Shown: piece after piece, positions 15,586-48,880 of the stretch
Numbering within the stretch: position 1 is the first letter of the stretch
How the letters are laid out: every line of letters starts with the position of its first letter
IMG/VR virus record: IMGVR_UViG_3300049217_000061
Span: 1 to 57,363 of that record
DNA: 57,363 nt
Reading direction: 5' to 3' (one strand)
Source of the DNA: a virus
The notes under the pieces: model-generated
What the model was told of the DNA's origin: nothing
What the model saw: only the letters and a program-made list of their open reading frames with translations
Database searches by the model: none
Made by a program: the position numbers and the translations under genes

Positions 15586-18051
15586 ATGCAGGATGTCGGT
15601 AGCTGGGCAGCACTACACTTCGCTGAGTTCGCGTCGTTCATCATTATGATCGCGCTGTCTATGGCGGTCGTGGCGGTAGCGTTGCTGTGGCGCGTCTGGA
15701 TCGGGTGGTCTACCCCGCTCAATAAGAACCAGAAGGTGGGGCTGACGGCTGCGATGCTCCTCTCCTTCGCACTTGCGGCTGGGTCGCAGTCCTCGCCCGT
15801 GCAGAGCGCGGTCGGGCAGATCGTGGGCGCACAGGGGTTAATCGCTACGTTCAACGTGGCTGGGAGACTGGTTCAGTCGCAGCTCCTTTCGGACGCGTCC
15901 CAGTTCACCGTTCTCACCGGCAGCGGGGCGGAGGACGTGTGCGCGGAGGCGGTGGCGGCCGAGGCTTCCCTAGTCGGCGGCAACGGGAGCGGCGTGTTGG
16001 TGATCGTAACTGTGCCACGCAAAGCCTACTGTTCCGAGATGCCGATCGCGGCTAACTTTCGCGGGCAAATTTATTTTCGCGGCCGCGTCAGCCGGGGCCG
16101 CATCTACACCGGCGTGCAGTGGGGGAGTTGGGGGTCGGGGGTCAGCATCTTCGGTATCGGGCAGGAAGGGAGCACGGTGCTGAACAACAGCGCCAATTCC
16201 AATCTGATCGCCTGCAACCCACTCTTGCACGATAACACGTACCCGACCAACTCCGACGGCGCGCCGTGCGCGGCTTACTTCAACTCCTCGACGAATATGC
16301 CGCAGGCCACCGTCACCTCGATCACGGCGGCGGCCGGCGGGACCTCGACGATCACCCTTAGCTCGGCACTCTCTGGCACTCCGCCCTCCACCTTCGCCGG
16401 CAGATTATTATGTGTGGGCAAGGAAACCACGTCCGCCGTGAACGGTCACTGCTGGGAAATTAAGCAGGAGCCGACCGGGGGCGGGACCATCTTTGTCGTC
16501 AACTCGACCTCGATGGTGGTGTGCGCGGCCACTTGCGGCGGGGTCGCCTACCTCGAAACTCCCCTGGTTGCCTTCACCCAAGGCCCGACCAACGGTGCCA
16601 CCTTCTACCATTCCGGTATGGAGCACTGGACCTTCACCTGCGCCTACGTGTACGGGTGCGCGGAATATGCGAACGGGGCGGGTGAGGAAGGCACCTACCT
16701 CAACGACGTGCAGGGGTATAACGGCACTGTTTATGGCTTCCGGCTCTTTGTCGGGAACAACGCCAGCCCGAACGCCTACGGCGGGGATAAGGGCGGCGCT
16801 TCCCACTCCGGCCCCTACACGAGGATCTTCCACAACTTCCAGGCGGAGGTGTGCGAGATCCACGCCGGCGGCTGCTATGGGATGAATGCGGCAGTCAGCG
16901 CTGGCGCGGTAACTCAGTTTGTGTCGGGCACTCAGATGATGGCCGGCACTCCCGCGATCATGCCTTCCACCGGGTGCCCGGCGTGCACTTACGCGGTCCT
17001 TGCCTACTCCTCCTCGGTGGCTTCCTCCACCATGAGCAAAACCTTCGTCGGGCTCGCTTCCGACGGGATCGCGATGGGCACGAACAGCCAGTCGATCTAC
17101 GGCGTGAACGGGTCCACGATGTCGCTGAAGGACGTGCAGAACTCCGGCACGCACGCGATCCTGCCCGAGTTAACGGAGGGACTCGGCTACTTCCAGTCCG
17201 GCCCCGCCAACAAGTTCGACGGCTACCACTGCGAGTACGCCATCATCTGCCAGGAGATCGGCGGGATGGCGACCCACAACGAGACCTGGATCGAGGACGG
17301 AGCCACCCAGACCCAGGGCGCGACGTGGGTCAACGGGGACAGTAACAACGACACTACCTTCAACTTCGAGATCGGCTCCGCGCAGGGCACGTCGAACATC
17401 GTCAACTTCTCCGCTTCCAATATGTCCACCATTTCCGGGACGCCCAGCACCAAGATGCTGAAAAACGACATCCTGGCGAACGCGGATTGCAGCGTCAGTA
17501 CCGAGGACAACGTCTACTATATTTTCGCGCAGACTTCGCTCTCGACCCCCTTATTCCTGACCGACTGTTCTTCGGCGCTGGGGCAGTCAATTCCCAATCT
17601 GAAAACTTCCTACGCGGTAACTGGCTCGGTCACTATCGGGTCCGGGTCAAACATCTCCGCCACCTCGCTATGTGCCACCACTTTATGCCCGGCTGGGCGT
17701 TACCGCGTGGACGTATACATCGAGATCACGACTGCCTGCACCACCACCGGGTCCACGATCCCGTGGCTCGGGTACACGGACGACCAGGGCGCGAAGGCGG
17801 GGTCGAGCACCACCACCTTCTTCTCGGCGGCCGGGGGACTCGGTACTACGCCCGCTACTGGTGGGACAACCGGCGCGACCCTTGTCCCCGACTCGACCGC
17901 TGACTTCCTCACTGGGAGCTATTTCCTGACCACCACCGGGGCAGCCACGGGCGGGCTAGGGTCGATCAACTACGGCGTCACCAACACGGCTTGCGGGACC
18001 GGCGGGCCGATGGTGGGGAAAGCGTTCTTCGACGTAACACGGTTGGAGTAA
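15586..18051 (+). CDS. Membrane-anchored beta-helix tail-spike-like protein
   Basis: 821 aa. Two hydrophobic spans lie at about 13-38 and 50-68 (FIIMIALSMAVVAVALLW; GLTAAMLLSFALAAG), then a long Gly/Ser/Thr-rich region whose rhythm (SIFGIGQEGSTVLNNSANSN..., GTYLNDVQGYNGTVYGFR) resembles right-handed beta-helix tail-spikes. The final 150 residues are beta-sandwich-like. Such N-terminal membrane spans are unusual for a tail-spike. It lies between two genes with signal peptides and shares their composition. Confidence 0.65.
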   Translation: MQDVGSWAALHFAEFASFIIMIALSMAVVAVALLWRVWIGWSTPLNKNQKVGLTAAMLLSFALAAGSQSSPVQSAVGQIVGAQGLIATFNVAGRLVQSQLLSDASQFTVLTGSGAEDVCAEAVAAEASLVGGNGSGVLVIVTVPRKAYCSEMPIAANFRGQIYFRGRVSRGRIYTGVQWGSWGSGVSIFGIGQEGSTVLNNSANSNLIACNPLLHDNTYPTNSDGAPCAAYFNSSTNMPQATVTSITAAAGGTSTITLSSALSGTPPSTFAGRLLCVGKETTSAVNGHCWEIKQEPTGGGTIFVVNSTSMVVCAATCGGVAYLETPLVAFTQGPTNGATFYHSGMEHWTFTCAYVYGCAEYANGAGEEGTYLNDVQGYNGTVYGFRLFVGNNASPNAYGGDKGGASHSGPYTRIFHNFQAEVCEIHAGGCYGMNAAVSAGAVTQFVSGTQMMAGTPAIMPSTGCPACTYAVLAYSSSVASSTMSKTFVGLASDGIAMGTNSQSIYGVNGSTMSLKDVQNSGTHAILPELTEGLGYFQSGPANKFDGYHCEYAIICQEIGGMATHNETWIEDGATQTQGATWVNGDSNNDTTFNFEIGSAQGTSNIVNFSASNMSTISGTPSTKMLKNDILANADCSVSTEDNVYYIFAQTSLSTPLFLTDCSSALGQSIPNLKTSYAVTGSVTIGSGSNISATSLCATTLCPAGRYRVDVYIEITTACTTTGSTIPWLGYTDDQGAKAGSSTTTFFSAAGGLGTTPATGGTTGATLVPDSTADFLTGSYFLTTTGAATGGLGSINYGVTNTACGTGGPMVGKAFFDVTRLE

Positions 18052-18053
18052 AA

Positions 18054-21000
18054 ATGAGAAAACTATTCGCTATCGCAGCTATCGCCTTCCCTGCTCTCCT
18101 GGTTACCGGCTCGGTCATCGTGTCGGCCCAAACCGCCGGCTCGATCAACGGCATGTGCGCCAAGGGGAACACGTTCCTGTCGGCGTTCGGCACCCCCACC
18201 ACCACCCCGGCTGTAGGCTCGTTTCCCTCCTGCACCGTCACCGCCTATCTCACTGGCACGACCACCCTCGCCACCCTCTACCAGAACTCCACGCTCACCC
18301 CGCTTACCAACCCGTTCACCGCGAACACGGACGGGTCGTGGCTCCTGTTCGCGTCCAACACGATCAACTACGACATCGTGATGTCGGGAGGCACCCCGTT
18401 TCCCCTCCCGGCTCCTGTCGCCCTGACGAACCTATCCGTTTCCACGATCACCTCCGCTCCCCCGCCGAACGTGATGTCGGTAACTCCCAACCCTCTTTCC
18501 TTTGGCAACGTGCCGATCGGGACTACTGGCCCTCCCCTGCTCGTCCAGCTCACGAACAACACGGTGGCTGCCGTCACCTCCCTCGTGCTCCCCGCCGCCC
18601 CCACTGGGACTAACGCCGCCGACTTCACCGGCCCGCTTGGGAGCACGTGCGGTTCCACCCTCGCCGCGAACGGGGGGACCTGCTTCTACCAAGTCCGCTG
18701 TTCGCCTACCTTGTCCTCGCTCGAAACTGCCACGCTCACCATCACTGACTCGGCCGGGACTCAGGTCCAGACCCTCAACTGTTCCGGCTACAGCTCCGGC
18801 CCGCCTGTCCCCTTGAACATCGGCGCGTCCCCTTCCGCCGTCAACTTCGGCTCCGTCCAACAATTCGTCACCAGCGCCCCGTCTCCAGTCACGATTACCA
18901 ACGTCGGTACTTCCTCGGGCACGATCTCCGCGATCGCTATCGCAGGCACGAACTCCTCCGACTTCGGTCAGTCCTCTTCATGTGTGGGCACAATTCTCCC
19001 GAACTCATCCTGCGTGGTCTCCGTCACTTTCACGCCCTCCATCCTTGGCGCGGAAGGCCCGGCTACCCTCACCATCACCAACAACGGGAGTACGCCCTCT
19101 CTTATGGTTGGCTTGGCTGGGACGGGAACGGCGGCGGCTTCATTTTCGCTTTCTCTCACTAGCGCAGTTGGGGCGCAAGGTGTAGGGACGGTCACAAGCA
19201 ATGACGTTCCACCGACGATCAATTGTTCCTTTACCTCACTGGGGGTGTCGGGAATTTGCAATGGAAATTATCCCACCGGGACAATGTTGACGCTGACCGC
19301 TTCCCCGAATGCCAATAGTGCATTGTTGAGCACAGTGGGCACGGGCAGCGCCAGTGGATGTTCTTCGAGCGGTTCGTTAATCTGCGGACCCATCACGATC
19401 ACGACGAACTCGACGCTTACTTACGGTTTTCAACCGTTCAATCAAACCGATTCATTGAGCATCGTATTTATCGGCACCGGCACTGGCACAGTTCTTGGTT
19501 CCGCAAATGCCTCTTCGATCAATTGCACCGAGAATAGTAACGGAACTCAATCGGGAACGTGTAACCAACTGATTCTTGCGGGATCTTCAGTTACCTTGAC
19601 GGCGACACCGAGCGGCACCGCAACCTTTGTAAATTGGGTTGGTATTTCTGGGTGCTCGTCGAATCCAGTGTGTGGCCCCTTCTCGATCAACAGCCCGATC
19701 ATTGCCAACGTAAATTTCCAGCCGGGTTCTGGTGGCGTGCCACTGGCAAAGCAGCAGAATTGCCAAACTAGCGTTGCGGGCACAAGTAATGTGTCATGCA
19801 ACTGGGCCGCGCCGATTCTGGCCGGCGACACCCTGTTTGTAAATGGCGAGTGGTTCGACAATTCCAGCACTGTATCGAGTGTCACCGATAACTGCGGGAA
19901 TACCTATACGCAGCTTACCGGGTGCTCAGGCAGCAGTTCGCCGCGCGCGGTCGCGGCTGCGAACGGGCAATCCGCGATTACCGGCGTTGTCTATTATGCA
20001 AAGAATGTGAATGCCGCCCTAGCCAAAGCGTGTACTACAGCGATTGCTTTAACTGCGAGCGCGATGGGCCGTGTGATGACCGGCGAAGATTGGGCCGGCC
20101 TGACTACCAACCCCCTTGACGTTTGCGCGGGGGCGAGCGGGCAAGACAACGCCGGGTCATCTCCTCCCGGCAGCGGAAACATTACAACCACGGTGCCGGC
20201 AGATCTCTTACTTGCATTCAACGACTTGACCAGCGGAATCACTTCGCCCGCCACCAGTTTCACGCAGGACATCTATAACTCCTACGGAAATAGTCTGACG
20301 TTTTCTCAATCGAGAGCGCACGCCACTTCATTCACTACCGCTACCGGGACAAACACGCTCAATAATTCGGTAGGAACCGGCGACACCGTGACCGGCATGA
20401 TAATTTCCTCGTCAGCCAGTGACACGTTGAGTAGCGTGGTCACTTCGACTGGCAACAATTGCAACGTGGTGGGGCCATCCACGCAGGCCACGGCTGGTTC
20501 GGTCTGGCTCTACTACTGCAACAATGTCACGGGGAGCGCATACCCTTGGACTGTCACCGCAACCTTCTCCGGGACCGGGCCGACGCGAGCTATTTGGACG
20601 GATGATTTCAATACGGGCGGCAAGGTTCCAACTTTCGACCTGAGCGCGAGCGGATCGGGAACGACTGGAACCGCCGTAAACACTCCAACGATTACGCCGA
20701 CCAATGGAAATTCATTCCTATACTGCGGCGCGATGGTGAGTACCGGAGTTTCAACAGTCAATTCTCCCTGGACTGCGGGCGCGTTTGGTCTAGGCACGAA
20801 CGTCGATTTTTATCAGTTAAGCGCTAGTGGTGGGCAGGCGGTCAATCTCACTGCCATTAGCTCGGGGCCGTGGGCTTCGATCTGTCTATCGTTGAGTCCC
20901 GGCACGGGCGGTTCAAACGATCTTGAAGAACGCCCCAATGTATCCACTGGCGGCAGTCCTTACGTCAACGCAGTTACCCCTTCATCGACGACAAACAATT

Positions 21001-22775
21001 GGGCGTCGTTCCTGAGTGCGTGGAAGGTACAAACCACCACATCACCTAGCACGATCGCGGTTACAATTACCACCACGGCTAACGGTTCCGGCACGGTGAC
21101 CGGCGGCAGTTTGAATTGCATTATTACGAACGGCGTCTTGTCTGCCACGGGTTGCAGCGTTACGATTCCAATCAACTCCGCGCTTGCAATTACGGCGTCG
21201 CCGGCTTCCGGTTCGACTTTTACCGGCTACAACGGTGGAGGTTGCGGAGTAAATCCGCTGTGCAACATTCCTACATCGCAAACCGGAGTCAATCTCAACA
21301 TCGTCGCTAATTTCTCTCTGAGTTCGGCCTATACCTACACCAGCCAGGAGCCGGTAATTCCAGTAGCTTTTTCCTCAAATGCTCAAAGCATATTTTACAA
21401 ACCGCTGCCAGGGCGCTTGGGCACTTCGGGTAACTGGCTTAACCATCTGCAAGGCAATACCAGCACGCCAACTGTGAGCAACGCTTTTGGACAGTGCTTA
21501 ATTACGAATTGTGGTGCGCAGAAAAACAATGGCATCGGGAGTCCATCATCGAGCCTATGGGGATTCCAGCCGTTTAACAGCTATGGGAACTATAACAGCA
21601 CAGCGAAATATTATGCCCAGGCGGGAGATCCTTGGTGGATCGTAAATGGCTGCTTCTACTGCGGAACCGAAGCCGGGTGGACAATCGAATTTCAAGGACC
21701 GAACAATTTTCTTCTTCCAGGAGGTAACTCAAGCGGGCAAGGCGGCGATAGTTCAACCTTTATCTGGCAGCAGGCATCGGGGAACATTGTAGACCTTTAT
21801 TTTTCTGGTGGCAGTTCGACGGGGGAAACTCGCGCTGGAGTTTGCCCATCGAATTCGCATCAAGGAACGTTTGCAGATCCTTGCACGATTCCGATTACCT
21901 GGAGCGCATTAAGCTGGTCGGCAAATTACTACACTTCGCGGGACTGGCAAGCGCAGAATCAGGCGGGATCAAATGACCTGGGTTCTTCGATCGGCATCGC
22001 TCCGCTGGCAGCGCAGGTGCGCACCAATGAACTGACATCGGGCAACATCCCCCATGTGAGGCTTACCGGCGTACCTTGTATCAAAAAGGCGATTCCATTC
22101 CCGGCGCAAGCTGCCATAGTATTTCCCGCCAATGCCTCGCCTGGGATCTGCGGAACAAGCGGGTTTCCTTCCGACTCAACTTACCGGCCTTATGCTGGGA
22201 TGCTTTACGCATTCGACTACACCCCGGCGCAGCTTGATTGTCTGGACCCCGCAAAGGCAACTTGTACCTACAGCGATTCAACGCCAATCGCTAAGGTCTA
22301 TGATTTTCAGATGGTTTGGATTCGGGAGAATTCAAACTATGGCGTGATTCCAGCAGAGACAAGCGGAAACGACGGCAGTCAGACCCTCGATTACAATGTG
22401 CCTTATGGGTTCGATGACTACGCCACCTCTTGGCAGTTTTATTTTGAACTCGGCCAGCAAGTGAGTCCTTTTAATTCCCCCCTTTGGGCCTATCTGCAAA
22501 ATGCAGCGAACGAAACGGGTGCCACGTCGAGCGGTACCGCTTTTTGCGGTGGGGCCAGAACGGGCACGAATGCCAGTCAGAAATATTGTTATGTACGGGC
22601 TTACTCGAATATCCCGCTTCTGCCTGGACTTTCCGGCTTGACTGACATTAACGGCAATTCTTGCACGTCAACTTACGGCTGTGATGCGAGCGGGCATCTC
22701 CAAGCGGTTGACCAATGTGTGTTAATTGCGCAAGCCGGTCTTTCGAGTTATAAAGGCGTGAACGGTTGTCCTTAG
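18054..22775 (+). CDS. Giant secreted adhesin or tail-fibre with choice-of-anchor-D domains
   Basis: 1573 aa from the ATG at 18054 (an in-frame ATG at 17991 lies inside the previous gene). Residues 1-24 form a signal peptide (MRKLFAIAAIAFPALLVTGS). Two ASH/choice-of-anchor-D-type repeats follow (about 145-360; PNPLSFGNVPIGTTGPPLLV and FGSVQQFVTSAPSPVTITNV), then Ig- or InlB-like beta repeats with paired cysteines and a distinct C-terminal domain (about 1095-1573) rich in Trp and Tyr. Base composition falls visibly after about 19130, so the gene is a chimera of phage-like and host-like DNA. Likely receptor or polysaccharide binding. Confidence 0.7.
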   Translation: MRKLFAIAAIAFPALLVTGSVIVSAQTAGSINGMCAKGNTFLSAFGTPTTTPAVGSFPSCTVTAYLTGTTTLATLYQNSTLTPLTNPFTANTDGSWLLFASNTINYDIVMSGGTPFPLPAPVALTNLSVSTITSAPPPNVMSVTPNPLSFGNVPIGTTGPPLLVQLTNNTVAAVTSLVLPAAPTGTNAADFTGPLGSTCGSTLAANGGTCFYQVRCSPTLSSLETATLTITDSAGTQVQTLNCSGYSSGPPVPLNIGASPSAVNFGSVQQFVTSAPSPVTITNVGTSSGTISAIAIAGTNSSDFGQSSSCVGTILPNSSCVVSVTFTPSILGAEGPATLTITNNGSTPSLMVGLAGTGTAAASFSLSLTSAVGAQGVGTVTSNDVPPTINCSFTSLGVSGICNGNYPTGTMLTLTASPNANSALLSTVGTGSASGCSSSGSLICGPITITTNSTLTYGFQPFNQTDSLSIVFIGTGTGTVLGSANASSINCTENSNGTQSGTCNQLILAGSSVTLTATPSGTATFVNWVGISGCSSNPVCGPFSINSPIIANVNFQPGSGGVPLAKQQNCQTSVAGTSNVSCNWAAPILAGDTLFVNGEWFDNSSTVSSVTDNCGNTYTQLTGCSGSSSPRAVAAANGQSAITGVVYYAKNVNAALAKACTTAIALTASAMGRVMTGEDWAGLTTNPLDVCAGASGQDNAGSSPPGSGNITTTVPADLLLAFNDLTSGITSPATSFTQDIYNSYGNSLTFSQSRAHATSFTTATGTNTLNNSVGTGDTVTGMIISSSASDTLSSVVTSTGNNCNVVGPSTQATAGSVWLYYCNNVTGSAYPWTVTATFSGTGPTRAIWTDDFNTGGKVPTFDLSASGSGTTGTAVNTPTITPTNGNSFLYCGAMVSTGVSTVNSPWTAGAFGLGTNVDFYQLSASGGQAVNLTAISSGPWASICLSLSPGTGGSNDLEERPNVSTGGSPYVNAVTPSSTTNNWASFLSAWKVQTTTSPSTIAVTITTTANGSGTVTGGSLNCIITNGVLSATGCSVTIPINSALAITASPASGSTFTGYNGGGCGVNPLCNIPTSQTGVNLNIVANFSLSSAYTYTSQEPVIPVAFSSNAQSIFYKPLPGRLGTSGNWLNHLQGNTSTPTVSNAFGQCLITNCGAQKNNGIGSPSSSLWGFQPFNSYGNYNSTAKYYAQAGDPWWIVNGCFYCGTEAGWTIEFQGPNNFLLPGGNSSGQGGDSSTFIWQQASGNIVDLYFSGGSSTGETRAGVCPSNSHQGTFADPCTIPITWSALSWSANYYTSRDWQAQNQAGSNDLGSSIGIAPLAAQVRTNELTSGNIPHVRLTGVPCIKKAIPFPAQAAIVFPANASPGICGTSGFPSDSTYRPYAGMLYAFDYTPAQLDCLDPAKATCTYSDSTPIAKVYDFQMVWIRENSNYGVIPAETSGNDGSQTLDYNVPYGFDDYATSWQFYFELGQQVSPFNSPLWAYLQNAANETGATSSGTAFCGGARTGTNASQKYCYVRAYSNIPLLPGLSGLTDINGNSCTSTYGCDASGHLQAVDQCVLIAQAGLSSYKGVNGCP

Positions 22776-36879: not shown

Positions 36880-37899
36880 ATGCCTGATTTCCTGTCCGCG
36901 CAAGAGTTTTCTGACTGGGAGTTTTGCCCGCGACTGGTCCAACTCTCGCGTACCGTCGAGCCGCCCTCGTTTCCGGTCCGCCACTCTATTCGTCGCTACC
37001 TCCTGCGCGCCGTCCGAGCGCTCGCCGTGAAGGGTGGCCCTCGCGTGGACGACGTGGTGTGGGACACTACCCAGGCGTTCTTAGAGGAGGCCGCCGATCG
37101 CGGGTTCGAGCACACCATCCCCCTGCTCGCCTTCGACCGCAACGTGTACTCCCTCCTGCGCGACTACGCGTGCTGGCTGGAGGGGGCGATCCACCTGGTG
37201 GACGAGTTCGCACCCTCCCTGGCTGCGCTCGATCCTGTGAGGATCGGCGATCGCCTTGTTCTGCTCGACTGCTGGCTCGACCGGGATGACTCCACTAGCG
37301 CCCACACGTTCCGAGTTACCGATCGAGCAGCCACTACCGCCGACCCGCCCGTACGCTGGAACGAGCTTCTCGCCTCCCTCGACCCTAGTATCCGCTCGAT
37401 CACCCTCCACTCCTTCCTCCTCCCCGCCCCCGTGAAGGATCGCCTCGCCTCCCCTTTGGTGCTCGCCTACTCCCACCCGATCAACGGGCACATGCGGCTC
37501 GCCACCCTGGACGAGGAACGCTATCAGTTCACGAAGAACTGGAAGCGCACGGCTCGATGGGAGCAGGAGGGCAGGCCCGACGCGATCCAGTGGCCGGAGT
37601 GGCGGGAGGGAATCGAGCGCGACCAGTGCATCGGGCGCTGCTATCAGGAGAGCGTGATCGACACGGACACCCTCGCCCCGGACCGCCAGTTACTCGCTTA
37701 CGATACCGGGCTAATCGTGGAGGAGTTAACGGACCAGCCGATCGCGGTGAGGAGGCGGGAGAACTGCCGGCGCTGCATGATGGCGGGGTACTGCCACGGA
37801 GATGAGGAGAGCCGCCAGAGCTACCGCGTCATTTCCGCCGCTTCCGCAAACGCCCTGACGAACTCTGCCGCGACTTGCGGTACGATAGCATTGCCGTAA
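36880..37899 (+). CDS. Cas4-like cysteine-cluster protein
   Basis: 339 aa. The N-terminus FLSAQEFSDWEFCPRLVQLS carries the CPR motif seen at the start of Cas4/Dna2-type PD-(D/E)XK nucleases (Cys16). The C-terminal NCRRCMMAGYC (Cys295, 298 and 304) supplies the other three cysteines of a 4Fe-4S site. The expected catalytic D...ExK triad is not obvious between them, so the nuclease may be degenerate or inactive. It is the last rightward gene and its end overlaps the methyltransferase gene on the other strand. No CRISPR array is present. Confidence 0.6.
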   Translation: MPDFLSAQEFSDWEFCPRLVQLSRTVEPPSFPVRHSIRRYLLRAVRALAVKGGPRVDDVVWDTTQAFLEEAADRGFEHTIPLLAFDRNVYSLLRDYACWLEGAIHLVDEFAPSLAALDPVRIGDRLVLLDCWLDRDDSTSAHTFRVTDRAATTADPPVRWNELLASLDPSIRSITLHSFLLPAPVKDRLASPLVLAYSHPINGHMRLATLDEERYQFTKNWKRTARWEQEGRPDAIQWPEWREGIERDQCIGRCYQESVIDTDTLAPDRQLLAYDTGLIVEELTDQPIAVRRRENCRRCMMAGYCHGDEESRQSYRVISAASANALTNSAATCGTIALP

Positions 37900-38783
37900 C
37901 CCCGCAACTGGCCCACTCGCTCGGCAACCCCATGAGCCAGCGGGAATATTCCGGGTTTAATTGGCCGGTACTTTTCGTCTCGTGCGTGCCACCAGTCGCA
38001 GTCAGCCCAGAATCCGCGAGTTGCGCCTGCCTCGGCAACTGATCGAGCCGTGTGCGGATCGAGCCATCCGGGTCCACGCCAGTCTCGGACATCCCCGAAG
38101 TGTCTTTCCAGTCGCGCGCTGAGGGGCTGGCTACCGCCTGAATCGTCGTCGCCAAATTGCTGTAGCCGTTCCCGTACCGACTCTGGGAGTATTTCCGCGG
38201 ATCGGTCGCCCGTGAATTGTTGTCGTCGGCTGCGTTCGGCGTCGGCACACTTGCCAGTTCCACTGCGTTGTACGTCTCCGGCGTGGGCACCGAAGTATAG
38301 CCTTTGTCGGATGTGCGGCGCACCGACGCTGCACGCTCCAAGTACAGCCGCCCCAACGGTGTAACTCTCTCTTTCCAGGTCAGATTGAACAAGGTCGAGC
38401 CAGCCGTGCCCAATCGCCGCTTTAACCTGTTCTCCAAATATATTTGCAGGATGGCACTCCCGGATGAGGCGCTCCCACTCCGGCCAGAGGTGGCGAGGGT
38501 CGCTAAATCCTTGGCCTTTCCCGGCTGCGCTGAAACTGGGGCAGGGGCAACTTCCAGTCCAACATTCCTTATCGTCGGGCCACCCTGCAAGCTGGAGCGC
38601 GTAGCTCCATCCGCCGATTCCGGCGAAGAAGTGGCACTGGCTCCAGCCTTCAAGGTCTCGGGCCTTAACCTCCTGGATGTCACGCTCGTCCACGTAGCCA
38701 TCGGCAATCAACTTCTCCCCGATCAGTTCCCGCAACCAAGCTGCTGCTTTGGGGTCGTTCTCGTTATAGTACACGTAACTCAT
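37821..38783 (-). CDS. C5-cytosine DNA methyltransferase (Dcm-like)
   Basis: 320 aa. Motif I is CHFFAGIGGWSYALQLAGW (about 50-68). Motif IV is GSCPCPSFSAAGKGQGF with the catalytic Cys in the CPCP segment (about 79-81). Motif VI is FGEQV (about 115), motif VIII IRQRLYF (about 158) and motifs IX-X LRGYGNAIVPQVAAEFVRAF near the end. It methylates cytosine at C5 using SAM, probably to protect phage DNA; no restriction enzyme is present. Its target-recognition region lies under a second long frame on the same strand (37829-38707). Confidence 0.9.
   Translation of the reverse strand: MSYVYYNENDPKAAAWLRELIGEKLIADGYVDERDIQEVKARDLEGWSQCHFFAGIGGWSYALQLAGWPDDKECWTGSCPCPSFSAAGKGQGFSDPRHLWPEWERLIRECHPANIFGEQVKAAIGHGWLDLVQSDLERESYTVGAAVLGACSVGAPHIRQRLYFGAHAGDVQRSGTGKCADAERSRRQQFTGDRSAEILPESVRERLQQFGDDDSGGSQPLSARLERHFGDVRDWRGPGWLDPHTARSVAEAGATRGFWADCDWWHARDEKYRPIKPGIFPLAHGVAERVGQLRGYGNAIVPQVAAEFVRAFAEAAEMTR
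37829..38707 (-). CDS. Long out-of-phase gene inside the methyltransferase gene
   Basis: 292 aa in the +1 phase of the same strand. The C-terminal two-thirds (GTAGSTLFNLTWKERVTPLG, ASVRRTSDKGYTSVPTP, and near the end STGQLNPEYSRWLMGLPSEW) match, from memory, a recurring phage protein family found at Dcm genes; it does not look like random out-of-phase sequence. Both frames stay open for about 290 codons. The first 80 residues are less convincing. The start is uncertain and the function unknown. Confidence 0.6.
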   Translation of the reverse strand: MPMATWTSVTSRRLRPETLKAGASATSSPESADGATRSSLQGGPTIRNVGLEVAPAPVSAQPGKAKDLATLATSGRSGSASSGSAILQIYLENRLKRRLGTAGSTLFNLTWKERVTPLGRLYLERAASVRRTSDKGYTSVPTPETYNAVELASVPTPNAADDNNSRATDPRKYSQSRYGNGYSNLATTIQAVASPSARDWKDTSGMSETGVDPDGSIRTRLDQLPRQAQLADSGLTATGGTHETKSTGQLNPEYSRWLMGLPSEWASCGVTAMLSYRKSRQSSSGRLRKRRK

Positions 38784-40211: not shown

Positions 40212-40928
40212 TTACTGTTCCGGTAACTCACTTGTCAAGAATAATTCCTTCTGCTTGACCTCCCCGTTGGGCGCGATCGTCGTCCCGACCACCTTAATTC
40301 CTACCGGCTCCTTCGGGTAGTCCGGCCCCATCATGTAGTCCTCGTAGTCCACGAGCGCCCCCGTCCTCCCCTCGTGCGCGGCCTTCACCATTGTGAAGTC
40401 GTACTCCAGTTTCAGCTTGTACGTCCCGGTATCGTCGTACAGGGAGCACGCCGGGTGGTAACAGGGGACGATCACCACGCCACTCTCGCTCAACCGCCAC
40501 GCGCGCCCGTGGCACTCGGCCAACTTCTTGTCCATCCAGTGCGCGCCCATCACCCCGCTCAACGCGTAACTCCCCAAGAGGGCGATCGTCCTCGGCTTCA
40601 CGTTGGCGATCTCCTTGCGCAGGATCGGCAGCCACTCCTCCACTTCCTCCGGCGTCGGCTTGGCGTAGTCGCGGAAGGTCTTGACCAGGTTGGTCACCCA
40701 CAACTGCTGCCTGACGATTCCGGCGTGCCCGAGGTAGTAGTCCAGCTCGCGCCCGGCCGGCCCACTAAAGGGTCGCCCGTTGACCGCCTCCCACTTGCCG
40801 GGGCGCTCGCCTATCAACATGAGTCCCGCGTGCGGGTAGCCCTCTCCCCAGACGACAACGCTCGACAGGTCGGACTCCCGCCTCCTTCCACCCTCAGTTA
40901 CCCCGTCGGAATTAAACTTGATCGTCAT
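40212..40928 (-). CDS. Uracil-DNA-glycosylase-like protein
   Basis: 238 aa from the ATG at 40928. The superfamily motifs are in order: LMLIGERPGKWEAVNGRPFS (about 37-56, the GExPG and PF-G-AG loops), a core LLGSYAL, and PCYHPA (about 154-159, the minor-groove motif 2). The four cysteines of family-4 iron-sulfur enzymes are not evident. It could excise uracil or other deaminated bases from phage DNA; a catalytically different member cannot be excluded. It overlaps the upstream gene by 17 nt. Confidence 0.8.
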   Translation of the reverse strand: MTIKFNSDGVTEGGRRRESDLSSVVVWGEGYPHAGLMLIGERPGKWEAVNGRPFSGPAGRELDYYLGHAGIVRQQLWVTNLVKTFRDYAKPTPEEVEEWLPILRKEIANVKPRTIALLGSYALSGVMGAHWMDKKLAECHGRAWRLSESGVVIVPCYHPACSLYDDTGTYKLKLEYDFTMVKAAHEGRTGALVDYEDYMMGPDYPKEPVGIKVVGTTIAPNGEVKQKELFLTSELPEQ

Positions 40929-41214
40929 AAACACACTGCATAAGCGGCTGGTCCCACTCCGGCTCCCTAAACGCCACACATGAGCAGATGCAATACGGGC
41001 AGTCGCAACTGGTGGGGGCCAGCACCGGGATCTCGATCGACCGCCCGCTGCTCCCTCCCGTTTTCGCGTACGGGAACGTCTTGTGCGGCCGGTGATCCTT
41101 CCTCCTGCACCCGCACTGCCGGCACGGGTCGTCGGGGTGGCCGGCTGACTTGAGCGCCGCTTGGGCAGCCTCGAATATGCCAGGCGGCAACGGTTGGGTG
41201 CGAGCGCGAGTCAT
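40912..41214 (-). CDS. Cysteine-rich small protein
   Basis: 100 aa with two metal-site-like clusters, CRQCGCRRKDHRPH (about 31-44) and SCDCPYCICSC (about 69-79). Basic N-terminus. It precedes the glycosylase gene in the operon. A zinc-binding partner or regulator is inferred from the cysteines only. Confidence 0.65.
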   Translation of the reverse strand: MTRARTQPLPPGIFEAAQAALKSAGHPDDPCRQCGCRRKDHRPHKTFPYAKTGGSSGRSIEIPVLAPTSCDCPYCICSCVAFREPEWDQPLMQCVYDDQV

Positions 41215-45179: not shown

Positions 45180-45545
45180 TTACTTCTTGGTGGTAGCGCC
45201 GGACTGCGCCTTCACTTCAGCGACCGCCCCCTTGAACGCCCCCATGATGGCCGCGCCTTCACTATGCGCCACCGCGATCGCCTGCTCGAACAACCCCTTG
45301 GCGGTCGGGCTAAGGGTTGCGTACGCCTGCTTGAACTCCGCCTCAAAGGTGGCGAGGTTAGTGGCGAACTGGCCGAACCCGGTGGCTGGAAGTCCCGACT
45401 GTAGGGCGACGGGTGCTGCCGCCGCCGCCGCTGCCTCCAGCGGCATCGTCCAGTTACCGACTACTGGTTGTGCCGGTGGTGCCGGCTCTGCCTGCGTCCC
45501 ACTGCCTGCTGCGGGTGCTGTTTCTGGCTGTGTTCCGTCTGTCAT
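45180..45545 (-). CDS. Ala/Pro-rich helical protein
   Basis: 121 aa. Residues 1-50 are Pro/Ala/Gln low complexity with an eight-Ala run; residues 55-115 form helices (TNLATFEAEFKQAYATLSPT; LFEQAIAVAHSEGAAIMGAF). Starts after AAGGAGATCGGGAA. No family recognised. Confidence 0.65.
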   Translation of the reverse strand: MTDGTQPETAPAAGSGTQAEPAPPAQPVVGNWTMPLEAAAAAAAPVALQSGLPATGFGQFATNLATFEAEFKQAYATLSPTAKGLFEQAIAVAHSEGAAIMGAFKGAVAEVKAQSGATTKK

Positions 45546-45581
45546 TTCCCGATCTCCTTCTTCCTTAATTCCTGTCTCAGT

Positions 45582-46601
45582 TTACGCGAGCGCCACCGTG
45601 GAGGTTGCGGCGTCGTACACCACCCCCTCCTGCCCGGCGATCCACCCTTCGTCGTACATGATCGCGCACACCTGCTGGCGCACCTTGGGTGGGCACGCCT
45701 TCAGCGCCTCGGCTCGGAACCCCTGCTTCGGCACCTCGGCGAACTCAACCAGGCCATCGTTAGCCGCGAGGATTTCCTGCAACGCTTCCGCTGCCTTGGC
45801 CTCCATCGCCGCCTGCCCCCACTCACTGGACGCGGGTACCGGCTTGGCGGGAGTTGCGCCCGGCTTCCCTTGCACCGCCGCCCCATTCGCCTTCCCGCTG
45901 ACCGCCGCCCTCGACGCGGGGGCCGCCACCGTAGGCCGGGCCGCCGGTTTGGGGGCCGCCTGCCTGCTCGCTGGAGCTGCCGGCTTCACTGCCACTGCCA
46001 CTGCCACTGCCGCTTTCTCCGCCCTCTCCCGCACGACACTCTCCGTCTCGCCGGGGAGCGCGATGATGTTGGTGCACAGCAGGATCGACTTCGGCTGGTC
46101 GCCATCCCCCTCCTGCGCGCTCAACCCCTTCCGCTCCTTCTGCGGCTGCCGCTTCACGTGCATCTTCAGCCCGACCATTCCCTTGCAGTTCCCGCTCGCC
46201 ATCCCCGACTGCTCACTCAGCCACGCGTGCTGCTCGGGGGTCGCGCTCTCGAACCAGCTCATAATGAACATGGCCGCGTTGGTGTTCGAGTTGATCGCGG
46301 ACTTGTCCCCCACCGGCACGGCATACGCCCCGTTGTCGTCGGCGCTGGGGACGAAGTACTTGAGGTCCCCGCCCGAGAACGCCTGCTGGTACGGCTCCTG
46401 CCCCTCGTCCAGCCCAGCCAGCGGCCACAGTTCCATGATCAGAGCGAGTTTCAAGTTCTGCGCCGCTCCTTGTTTAGCGAAGTTGAACTTCCCCCAGGCG
46501 ATGTCCGATATCTCAACATCAATATCGTCCCACAACCCGCCTTCCACGAATGTTGACGGCAACATAGATGCCGCGTGCTGCTGCTTCCCTGGTTCTGTCA
46601 C
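45582..46601 (-). CDS. Hypothetical protein, possible single-strand DNA-binding partner
   Basis: 339 aa. A beta-rich N-terminal domain (about 20-160) resembles an OB-like or DUF-type phage core (EISDIAWGKFNFAKQGAAQN...LALIMELWPL). A long Ala/Pro/Lys linker (195-255) leads to a helical end (EWGQAAMEAKAAEALQEILA, then CPPKVRQQVCAIMYDEGWIA). Domain plus flexible linker plus tail and the recombination setting suggest an SSB-like role; this is inference. Confidence 0.5.
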   Translation of the reverse strand: MTEPGKQQHAASMLPSTFVEGGLWDDIDVEISDIAWGKFNFAKQGAAQNLKLALIMELWPLAGLDEGQEPYQQAFSGGDLKYFVPSADDNGAYAVPVGDKSAINSNTNAAMFIMSWFESATPEQHAWLSEQSGMASGNCKGMVGLKMHVKRQPQKERKGLSAQEGDGDQPKSILLCTNIIALPGETESVVRERAEKAAVAVAVAVKPAAPASRQAAPKPAARPTVAAPASRAAVSGKANGAAVQGKPGATPAKPVPASSEWGQAAMEAKAAEALQEILAANDGLVEFAEVPKQGFRAEALKACPPKVRQQVCAIMYDEGWIAGQEGVVYDAATSTVALA

Positions 46602-46636
46602 GGTGATGATCTCCTTATGCGCTGGTAGCGCGGAAA

Positions 46637-46810
46637 TTAAGTTGCGAGTTGCGAATCTGCCTGCTCGACCGCCTGCTGGAGCAACCGTTGCGCTGTCTTA
46701 GTCACGGAGCGGTCCTCCTTGGCCGCAATCTCCCGGACTCGTTTCACCAGCGCGGGTGGAACTCGTAATCGCCAGATGGTTGTCACAGTCTGTGTCTTTT
46801 TTGTAGGCAT
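46637..46810 (-). CDS. Ribbon-helix-helix DNA-binding protein
   Basis: 57 aa from the ATG at 46810. TTIWRLRVPPALVKRVREIA gives the antiparallel strand and first helix, KEDRSVTKTAQRLLQQAVEQ the turn and second helix; this is an Arc/CopG-type ribbon-helix-helix. A candidate promoter lies so close upstream that the mRNA could be leaderless. It also forms the C-terminus of a longer in-frame reading from 47080. Likely a transcriptional repressor. Confidence 0.75.
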   Translation of the reverse strand: MPTKKTQTVTTIWRLRVPPALVKRVREIAAKEDRSVTKTAQRLLQQAVEQADSQLAT

Positions 46811-47090: not shown

Positions 47091-48704
47091 TCATCCCCGC
47101 ATCCCCGGCGGCACCATCGCCACACTTTTATACGCGTCCAGCCACCACTGCGGGAGATAATCCCTCGCCACCCTCACAAACCAGCTTACCTGGTCGTCTA
47201 CGATAAACGTCTCCCCCCAGTCGTCCTCGCTCCTCACGATCCTCCCCGACATCTGCACCAGATCCTGCGCGGTCACGTAGTTCCGGTACTCCTTATCGAC
47301 CTCCATCCTCGCGCGCTGCACGGCGCTCCTTAAATCAGGAAACGGTAACTTTGCTATCACCTGGTATCTCGCCTCGTCGTCCGGGAAGTCGTACCCGGTA
47401 TCCAGGCTCGGGCTAATCAGAACTGCCCCACTCTCCGGCGGCAGCTCCTTGAACTCCCTCACCCGCTCGGCCCTATTCCACTTGTCGTGCGCCAGCAACC
47501 TCCCTGTCCCCCGGTGCCTGCTATTCTCCATCAGCCACTTCGCCCGGTGGTAGCTCACCGTGTGCACGATCCCCTTCACCTTCGGCCGCCCAGTTATAAT
47601 CAGGTCGATCTTGTTCCCCCAGATCGCCTTCTCCTCGTCGGTCATCGTGTAGCGCATCTGCACGCACCTGACATGCGTTACCGGCCGCCGACTCACCGGG
47701 AAGGCGCTACTGTACTCGACGAACTCCCTACTCCCCGCGTCCGTCGATACGCCTAACAGATCCAGCGTTTTCGGCCTCACGGTCGCGCTCACCAGCACCA
47801 CCTTCTTCGCGCCCCGGAACAACTCCTGCTCGCTATATCTCTGCGGCCACAGGGGCGAGAACTTCACCTTGGTCTCATCCTCGTCGCTCTCCATCACCCA
47901 CTCGTGCTCCGCCTGAATCCCGGCGATCCTTATCAACTTATAGCTAATCGACTTGTGCCGGGCCGCGTCCTTAAACTCCCCGGCGCTCAACCTGGCCCCA
48001 TCCTTCATGGCCGCGTCGTACTGCTCGACCACCCTCAGCACGTGCACGCTCCAGTGCTTGGCCCAGTCCACCCACTGCCTGAACTCGTATCCGCGATAGG
48101 GCCACTCGATCGCCACTCGCTCGCATTCCTTCTGCGCGACCTCCACCTCCAGGTAACTCGCCAGCTCCTCGGGCGCGCCGTGGGCCTCGTCCATCACCAT
48201 CAGGTCGAACGGGCGGTCCACCTCCAGGCTCCCGGCGCGGCTCCTGGCCTTCTGCTGGTCGTGTAGCCAACACTGGTAGTTCGTTACCACGATCTCCGCC
48301 CGCTGCGCCTCCCTATAGCGGTCGTAATATTCGCACCCGCCGCTCTTGTACTTGCACCGGAACCCGTAATTACAGGGGGCCTCGCTCACCGGCGTGTTGG
48401 GTGGGATGTCCAGCTTGACCGCGATGGGGCAGAGGAAGTTGTTCTTTCCGCGTAAGTCGCAGGCGATCTCGCTAAAGTCCCGACTGTACTGGTCCTGTAA
48501 CCCTTTTGTACTTGTGAGCACAAGGGTCCGCCACCCTAGCATCTTGCTCGCCGCCATGATGACCAGCGACTTCCCAAACCCGGTGGGCGCGCACAGCACG
48601 TTGAACCGCGCCGGCGACTGATACATTTGCTCGATGGCGTCGAGCTGCCCTTCCCGCCACAGGGAGTAGCGCGCGGGCAGTCCGTAATGGGCGGGAGTCA
48701 GCAT
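47091..48704 (-). CDS. XPD/DinG-like superfamily 2 helicase with cysteine cluster
   Basis: 537 aa from the ATG at 48704, coupled to the upstream stop (ATGCTGA). Walker A APTGFGKS (about 39-46), DEAH (172-175), motif III VSATVRP and motif VI QMSGRIVRSEDDWG are all present. Between motifs I and II lie cysteines at about 82, 92, 111, 117 and 124 (CPIAV...CNYGFRCKYKSGGC), the place of the 4Fe-4S domain of XPD/DinG helicases. It likely unwinds 5'-3' at forks or R-loops, and is the only replicative-type helicase seen here. Confidence 0.88.
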   Translation of the reverse strand: MLTPAHYGLPARYSLWREGQLDAIEQMYQSPARFNVLCAPTGFGKSLVIMAASKMLGWRTLVLTSTKGLQDQYSRDFSEIACDLRGKNNFLCPIAVKLDIPPNTPVSEAPCNYGFRCKYKSGGCEYYDRYREAQRAEIVVTNYQCWLHDQQKARSRAGSLEVDRPFDLMVMDEAHGAPEELASYLEVEVAQKECERVAIEWPYRGYEFRQWVDWAKHWSVHVLRVVEQYDAAMKDGARLSAGEFKDAARHKSISYKLIRIAGIQAEHEWVMESDEDETKVKFSPLWPQRYSEQELFRGAKKVVLVSATVRPKTLDLLGVSTDAGSREFVEYSSAFPVSRRPVTHVRCVQMRYTMTDEEKAIWGNKIDLIITGRPKVKGIVHTVSYHRAKWLMENSRHRGTGRLLAHDKWNRAERVREFKELPPESGAVLISPSLDTGYDFPDDEARYQVIAKLPFPDLRSAVQRARMEVDKEYRNYVTAQDLVQMSGRIVRSEDDWGETFIVDDQVSWFVRVARDYLPQWWLDAYKSVAMVPPGMRG

Positions 48705-48880
48705 GGCCGATTTATGTGGCAGGAACAAATGCAAAACACTGTGTCGTCGGTATTATCAGTGTTTGCTATTTTTGAGATACCGCTACAGTGGTTGTGCTCG
48801 TTTTCGGAACAGTTACGAGAAACGCCAGTTAGCACTGTTAGTTGTTCCCCTTCTGGGAATACGTGCCATTTTACAGCCAT
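48698..48880 (-). CDS. Cysteine-rich 60-aa protein
   Basis: Starts at 48880 (AAGGAGAAGTG) with MAVKWHVFPEGEQLTVLTGV, then CSENEHNHCSG and CICSCH near the end, a probable metal site. Its EGEQLT segment resembles the start of the methyltransferase at 48946-49800, and its start region is a 28-bp duplicate of sequence 66 bp upstream. Overlaps the helicase start by 7 nt. Confidence 0.65.
   Translation of the reverse strand: MAVKWHVFPEGEQLTVLTGVSRNCSENEHNHCSGISKIANTDNTDDTVFCICSCHINRPC

Follow-up and report, generated by a model that had tools for sequence, protein, structure and literature searches.

A conserved reading frame nested in the +1 phase of a phage C5-cytosine methyltransferase gene probably supplies the second part of the enzyme

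The DNA analysed is IMG/VR virus record IMGVR_UViG_3300049217_000061, whose whole 57,363-nucleotide stretch is referred to here as the window. As the original prediction had proposed from the sequence, two long open reading frames (ORFs) share the nucleotides 37829-38707 within a methyltransferase gene. We term the outer frame alpha and the inner frame, which lies in the +1 phase of the same strand, beta. The features of the locus are as follows.

37821-38783, minus strand: alpha, C5-cytosine methyltransferase ORF of 320 amino acids with motifs I-VIII and X and catalytic Cys81
37829-38707, minus strand: beta, ORF nested in alpha; 292 codons without a stop in the +1 phase, TTG start, alternative ATG at 38701
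38715-38720, minus strand: GGGGAG, putative Shine-Dalgarno (SD)-like site 7 nt upstream of the beta TTG
38520-38546, minus strand: alpha motif IV, PCPSFSAAG, residues 80-88; C81 invariant in 66 relatives
38292-38324, minus strand: alpha motif VIII, GAPHIRQRLYF, residues 154-164; recognised by sequence and conserved among relatives
38351-38398, minus strand: beta residues 104-119, STLFNLTWKERVTPLG; strand region predicted within a helix-hairpin
38016-38288, minus strand: variable region spanning alpha codons 166-256, where alpha evolves neutrally and beta, with PTP-type segments, is constrained
37913-37960, minus strand: motif-IX-like sequence of beta, LNPEYSRWLMGLPSEW; most constrained stretch, aligned to a fused enzyme
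37860-37901, minus strand: alpha motif X, GYGNAIVPQVAAEF, residues 295-308; recognised by sequence, AlphaFold2 (AF2) helix 302-319, constraint relaxed

Profile and structure-database sequence searches matched alpha to PF00145 (2.9e-17), phrog_363 (3.2e-77) and, in the PDB, M.HhaI. With a PC-containing motif IV, the conserved motifs and an invariant Cys81, alpha belongs among the C5-cytosine methyltransferases of PF00145. The expectation that this frame would carry every methyltransferase motif held for motifs I-VIII and X; a motif-IX-like sequence is found in beta instead, and inspection of alpha revealed none. A search of the second frame against phage proteins, suggested at the outset, matched residues 19-277 of beta to positions 11-287 of the 329 in phrog_1008 (3.3e-24) and its C-terminal end to phrog_31772 (1.8e-11). 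No match to beta was found in Pfam, NCBIfam or the PDB. Both PHROG families represent the beta frame, and all 69 beta proteins of the set examined match the two of them; their label, 'DNA methyltransferase', masks the absence of catalytic motifs and a frame different from that of the methylase. Residues G103 and W111 of beta are invariant among relatives. Separately, a plus-strand ORF of 339 amino acids (36880-37899) terminates within the 3' ends of both frames, such that positions 37829-37899 may be readable in three ways. This ORF has clustered cysteines close to its end and matched neither PHROG nor Pfam profiles.

Relatives of the locus were assembled in two viral collections, one drawn by a beta motif and the other by an alpha N-terminal motif alone. 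Every locus in either collection contained both profiles, and wherever gene completeness allowed a comparison they lay in the same phase. To keep the choice of loci from biasing the result, the main tests were restricted to 76 genes drawn by the alpha N-terminus, and beta was open in every one of them. Following synonymous-codon shuffling within each gene, the longest +1 open stretch fell from 0.91 to 0.47 of the gene, while the +2 frame, serving as control, gave 0.20 observed and 0.24 shuffled; +1 openness was individually significant (p<0.05) in 63 of the 76. For the window gene itself, alpha was shuffled synonymously 5000 times, and the +1 frame stayed as open in a single case (shuffle mean 125 codons vs 292). 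The open stretch also has sharp ends. Alpha codons 44-74 lacked a +1 stop in 75 of 76 genes (45 expected) and codons 106-165 in all 76 (16 expected). Upstream of beta, at codons 2-20, only 12 genes were stop-free, fewer than the 28 expected, and downstream of it, at codons 297-316, 21 were stop-free, fewer than the 45 expected. The overlap of alpha and beta exceeds chance.

Synonymous codon choice in alpha was frozen at several positions: Ala283 was GCT in 67/67 genes (background 15%), Pro277 CCC in 66/66, Gly285 GGG in 76/76, Pro112 CCT in 75/75 and Val120 GTT in 75/75, where the background in flanking genes for those Ala, Gly and Pro codons was 15-24%. The most constrained stretch was codons 271-285, with a synonymous mismatch of 0.085. 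Choice relaxed past the end of beta, at codons 297-311 (Ala299, 305 and 311), and constraint was low over the first ~60 codons of beta. At alpha codons ~33-38 the rare AGG and AGT, together with ATT and GAT, were favoured; from these codons an SD-like AGGAGT and a subsequent ATG at codon 38 can be formed. This ATG occurred in 72 of 128 genes, and a beta start accompanied by an SD-like site in 98 of 128. In the window, beta likely starts at TTG 38707 or ATG 38701, judging from the sequence; the TTG is weaker than the ATG typical of relatives.

In a distantly related family, found from Paenibacillus phage Jacopo, the pattern matched at 50 loci, and at 49 of them the +1 frame contains the motif-IX sequence. 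The 39 unique genes of this family have an alpha GC of 0.38-0.60; open +1 sequence covers 0.74 of the gene vs 0.33, with p<0.05 in 38 of 39. Since this family shows the same layout at such GC content, the layout is neither an effect of GC nor limited to one phage group. It might otherwise be supposed that the beta frame is a by-product of high GC and conserved alpha residues, given that the window is GC-rich and holds other long antisense ORFs, such as that of 504 amino acids at 45187-46701 on the plus strand. This supposition is contradicted by the synonymous shuffles, the +2 and flanking-gene controls, the frozen codons, the sharp ends and relatives with an alpha GC down to 0.38, and we regard its probability as close to nil. 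One Jacopo-type copy (L389, 2001-2920) differs by a single base, such that the alpha frame gains the beta motif IX and loses motif X; the joined frames may represent a natural fusion, decay or a sequencing error.

Selection in each frame was measured using 46 independent pairs with an alpha identity of 68-95%, in which substitutions were sorted by their effect per frame and the dN/dS of beta was computed on alpha-changing sites. The baseline was the hypothetical +1 frame of ordinary flanking genes, 0.80 (0.70-0.89). Ahead of beta, the beta frame gave 1.18 (0.70-2.50). Values fell to 0.55 and 0.51 in the next two segments; the variable region gave 0.43 (0.33-0.51), and motif IX 0.30 (0.23-0.35). 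The test for purifying selection advocated with the original prediction shows beta to be under such selection. Shuffles, relatives and selection agree with the proposal that two conserved proteins are maintained on the same DNA in a fixed phase.

The dN/dS of alpha was 0.06-0.08 in its N-terminal half (flanking genes 0.18) and 1.01 (0.92-1.11) in the variable region, bearing out the view that the second frame overlies a region where the methyltransferase tolerates change. Variation there amounted to 0.295, 0.164 and 0.141 at alpha codon positions 1, 2 and 3, the peak at position 1 corresponding to position 3 of beta. With alpha approximately neutral and beta constrained, the stretch between motifs VIII and IX evolves as beta coding sequence, and alpha is a passenger; the information of the recognition region therefore appears to be located in beta. 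Frozen codons by themselves could also be due to an element acting at the RNA or DNA level. Such an element is scarcely credible as the source of the synonymous constraint, as variation in the variable region tracks the codon phase of beta and stop avoidance is limited to the beta frame and to the beta bounds.

The most conserved stretch of beta, LNPEYSRWLMGLPSEW, is motif-IX-like and lies near the end of the protein; we take it to resemble motif IX of M.HhaI. A natural comparison is provided by P0001, a 450-amino-acid methylase of the Mycobacterium prophage prophiFSAT01-1, in which motifs I, IV, VI and VIII lie in a single frame together with PTP-type segments, LNPRFSEWMMGWPQDW and a motif X reading GNGVVPQQ. 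Alignment of beta with the P0001 segment between motifs VIII and X using hhalign gave 93% probability (E 2.8e-7). Like the pair in the window, this enzyme combines alpha-type catalytic motifs with a beta-type PTP and motif-IX segment; it differs in having one reading frame and relatives without an open second frame (in four fused genes the +1 frame was not open, 0.24 vs 0.21 for the null). Motif IX of the enzyme appears to sit in beta, on grounds of resemblance and the fused homologue rather than a Pfam match.

The second frame recurs in phages, as had been predicted: tblastn with beta hit 222 phage records, of which 157 had a query coverage of 80% or more, all below 60% identity. Among 398 proteobacterial genomes, 27 had phrog_1008 matches, and every confident beta-profile match at these loci was overlapped by an alpha match in phase +1. 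A recheck of genome loci left four without a beta-profile match, one of which had neither frame. No standalone beta was found among the loci examined in phages, plasmids and the 398 proteobacterial genomes. The two-part overlapping layout is ancient and common in phages. The relatives in E. coli have phage-like surroundings, and the three regions read contained no recognisable restriction gene.

The idea that the second frame is a phage family in its own right did not survive this comparison, since the confident beta matches examined all overlap alpha save for in-frame methyltransferase fusions and one frame-shifted copy. A lack of homologues away from Dcm-overlapping positions, combined with neutral substitution in the second frame, was to have counted against two coding frames; the former was found apart from these exceptions, while the substitution pattern of beta is not neutral. 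Most likely, to judge from sequence comparison, the second family makes up the remaining half of the methyltransferase itself. Beta might instead be a real overprinted protein with a role unrelated to methylation, for example in anti-restriction or regulation: it has no Pfam or fold match, and selection demonstrates coding rather than function. We consider such a role improbable, because at the loci examined beta never occurs apart from alpha, because it resembles a segment of single-chain methylases between motifs VIII and X, and because a known two-polypeptide enzyme carries motif IX on its small chain (PMC3404938).

In six loci (L013, L015, L016, L023, L136 and L137) the alpha frame is broken, with beta intact except in L013, where it too is split; decay or sequencing errors may account for these interruptions. 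A shrunken pair occurs in Dunaliella viridis virus SI2 (L216, 1284-1700), where an alpha-like ORF of 138 amino acids without the catalytic core accompanies a beta-like ORF of 104 amino acids containing LNPALSRWLMGLPPVW.

The AF2 model of alpha was confident over most of residues 1-170 and 301-320, including the C-terminal helix 302-319, and had a pLDDT below 50 at residues 190-241. Foldseek aligned it with M.HhaI over ~190-205 alignment columns of 327 residues. The model is consistent with alpha being a large domain without the small domain. Beta modelled alone gave a pLDDT of 59 and a pTM of 0.27, with a helix-hairpin at residues 81-130 (pLDDT 72-91) and helices at 252-267; a Foldseek search with this low-confidence model returned no match below E 0.6. 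So weak a model of beta alone argues neither for nor against a domain that folds on alpha.

The sequence comparisons make it highly probable that the pair forms a C5-methyltransferase with two subunits, of the same type as M.EcoHK31I, in which alpha is the catalytic large domain and beta the small domain. Alpha would bind the cofactor and its cysteine nucleophile would attack the cytosine, a linker standing where an ordinary enzyme has its small domain. Beta, presumably translated on its own from the internal +1 start, would supply that small domain, comprising the variable region with PTP-type segments followed by motif IX. Its variable region would probably act in target recognition, reading the DNA target, and the two chains would assemble into one active methylating enzyme, as in M.EcoHK31I. 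Programmed +1 frameshifting from alpha into beta could in principle yield one long chimeric enzyme instead, as beta is in phase +1 to alpha and the viral copy L389 joins the frames via a one-base change. This is very improbable: motif X returns to the alpha frame, which would call for a second shift, beta possesses a conserved start of its own, accompanied by SD-like sites, and +1 openness begins near that start, well upstream of the variable region.

M.EcoHK31I is divided between a larger polypeptide, which carries motifs I-VIII and X and a predicted recognition domain, and a smaller one carrying motif IX only (PMC3404938); it has been termed naturally split (PMC3439449). The pair in the window is likened to this YGGCCR enzyme by its described motif layout (motifs I-VIII and X on the larger chain, IX on the smaller), not by sequence. 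According to Lee, Kam and Shaw (1995), the beta gene of M.EcoHK31I reportedly lies inside alpha in a different frame. The recognition domain of M.EcoHK31I was predicted in the larger chain, whereas in the window the variable region is neutral and predicted to be disordered in alpha and constrained in beta; the larger-chain placement is a literature prediction and not an established defining feature. No restriction gene was recognised alongside the window locus. M.AquI is likewise a two-polypeptide C5-methyltransferase (PMC3404938), whose small chain carries half of the variable region with motifs IX and X, whereas in the window motif X lies in alpha and the genes overlap. An M.AquI-type assignment was rejected because motif X is in alpha, not with motif IX on the small chain.

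A homologous pair with the same overlap is annotated in both frames in Escherichia phage K1ind2, as ORF29 ('C-specific methylase') and ORF28 ('Mte8-like protein'), sharing 55% (alpha) and 40% (beta) identity with the window. ORF28, the second frame, is annotated without a function; 'Mte8' is possibly a UniProt mnemonic denoting an E. coli methylase. The literature searched contained no account of this overlap in phages. The two-part layout has been seen before; what appears to be new is how widely it occurs and that beta encodes the variable region. We put at even odds the wider proposition that a large, old group of phage methylases has catalytic and recognition halves sharing nucleotides, with recognition in the inner frame and the outer frame drifting neutrally there, against the published assignment for M.EcoHK31I.

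To our knowledge, outside small viruses a long and ancient same-strand overlap encoding two conserved proteins is a rarity. The present overlap occurs often enough for the selection on each frame to be measured, and it predicts which of the two determines the target of the methylase. Annotation pipelines usually list alpha alone or call beta a methyltransferase. Codon optimisation could destroy beta, and a cloned phage methylase could consequently seem inactive.

Elsewhere in the window, the methylase strand encodes a member of the uracil-DNA glycosylase superfamily (40212-40979, minus strand; PF03167, 3.1e-26) and a DNA helicase (47091-48734, minus strand; phrog_2488, 1.7e-74). The plus-strand ORF at 45187-46701 is antisense to 45582-46601 on the minus strand, has no PHROG match and is possibly a chance ORF of GC-rich DNA. 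An ORF of 1594 amino acids (17991-22775, plus strand) matched an Ig-like domain of HYDIN/ASH type (5.4e-6).
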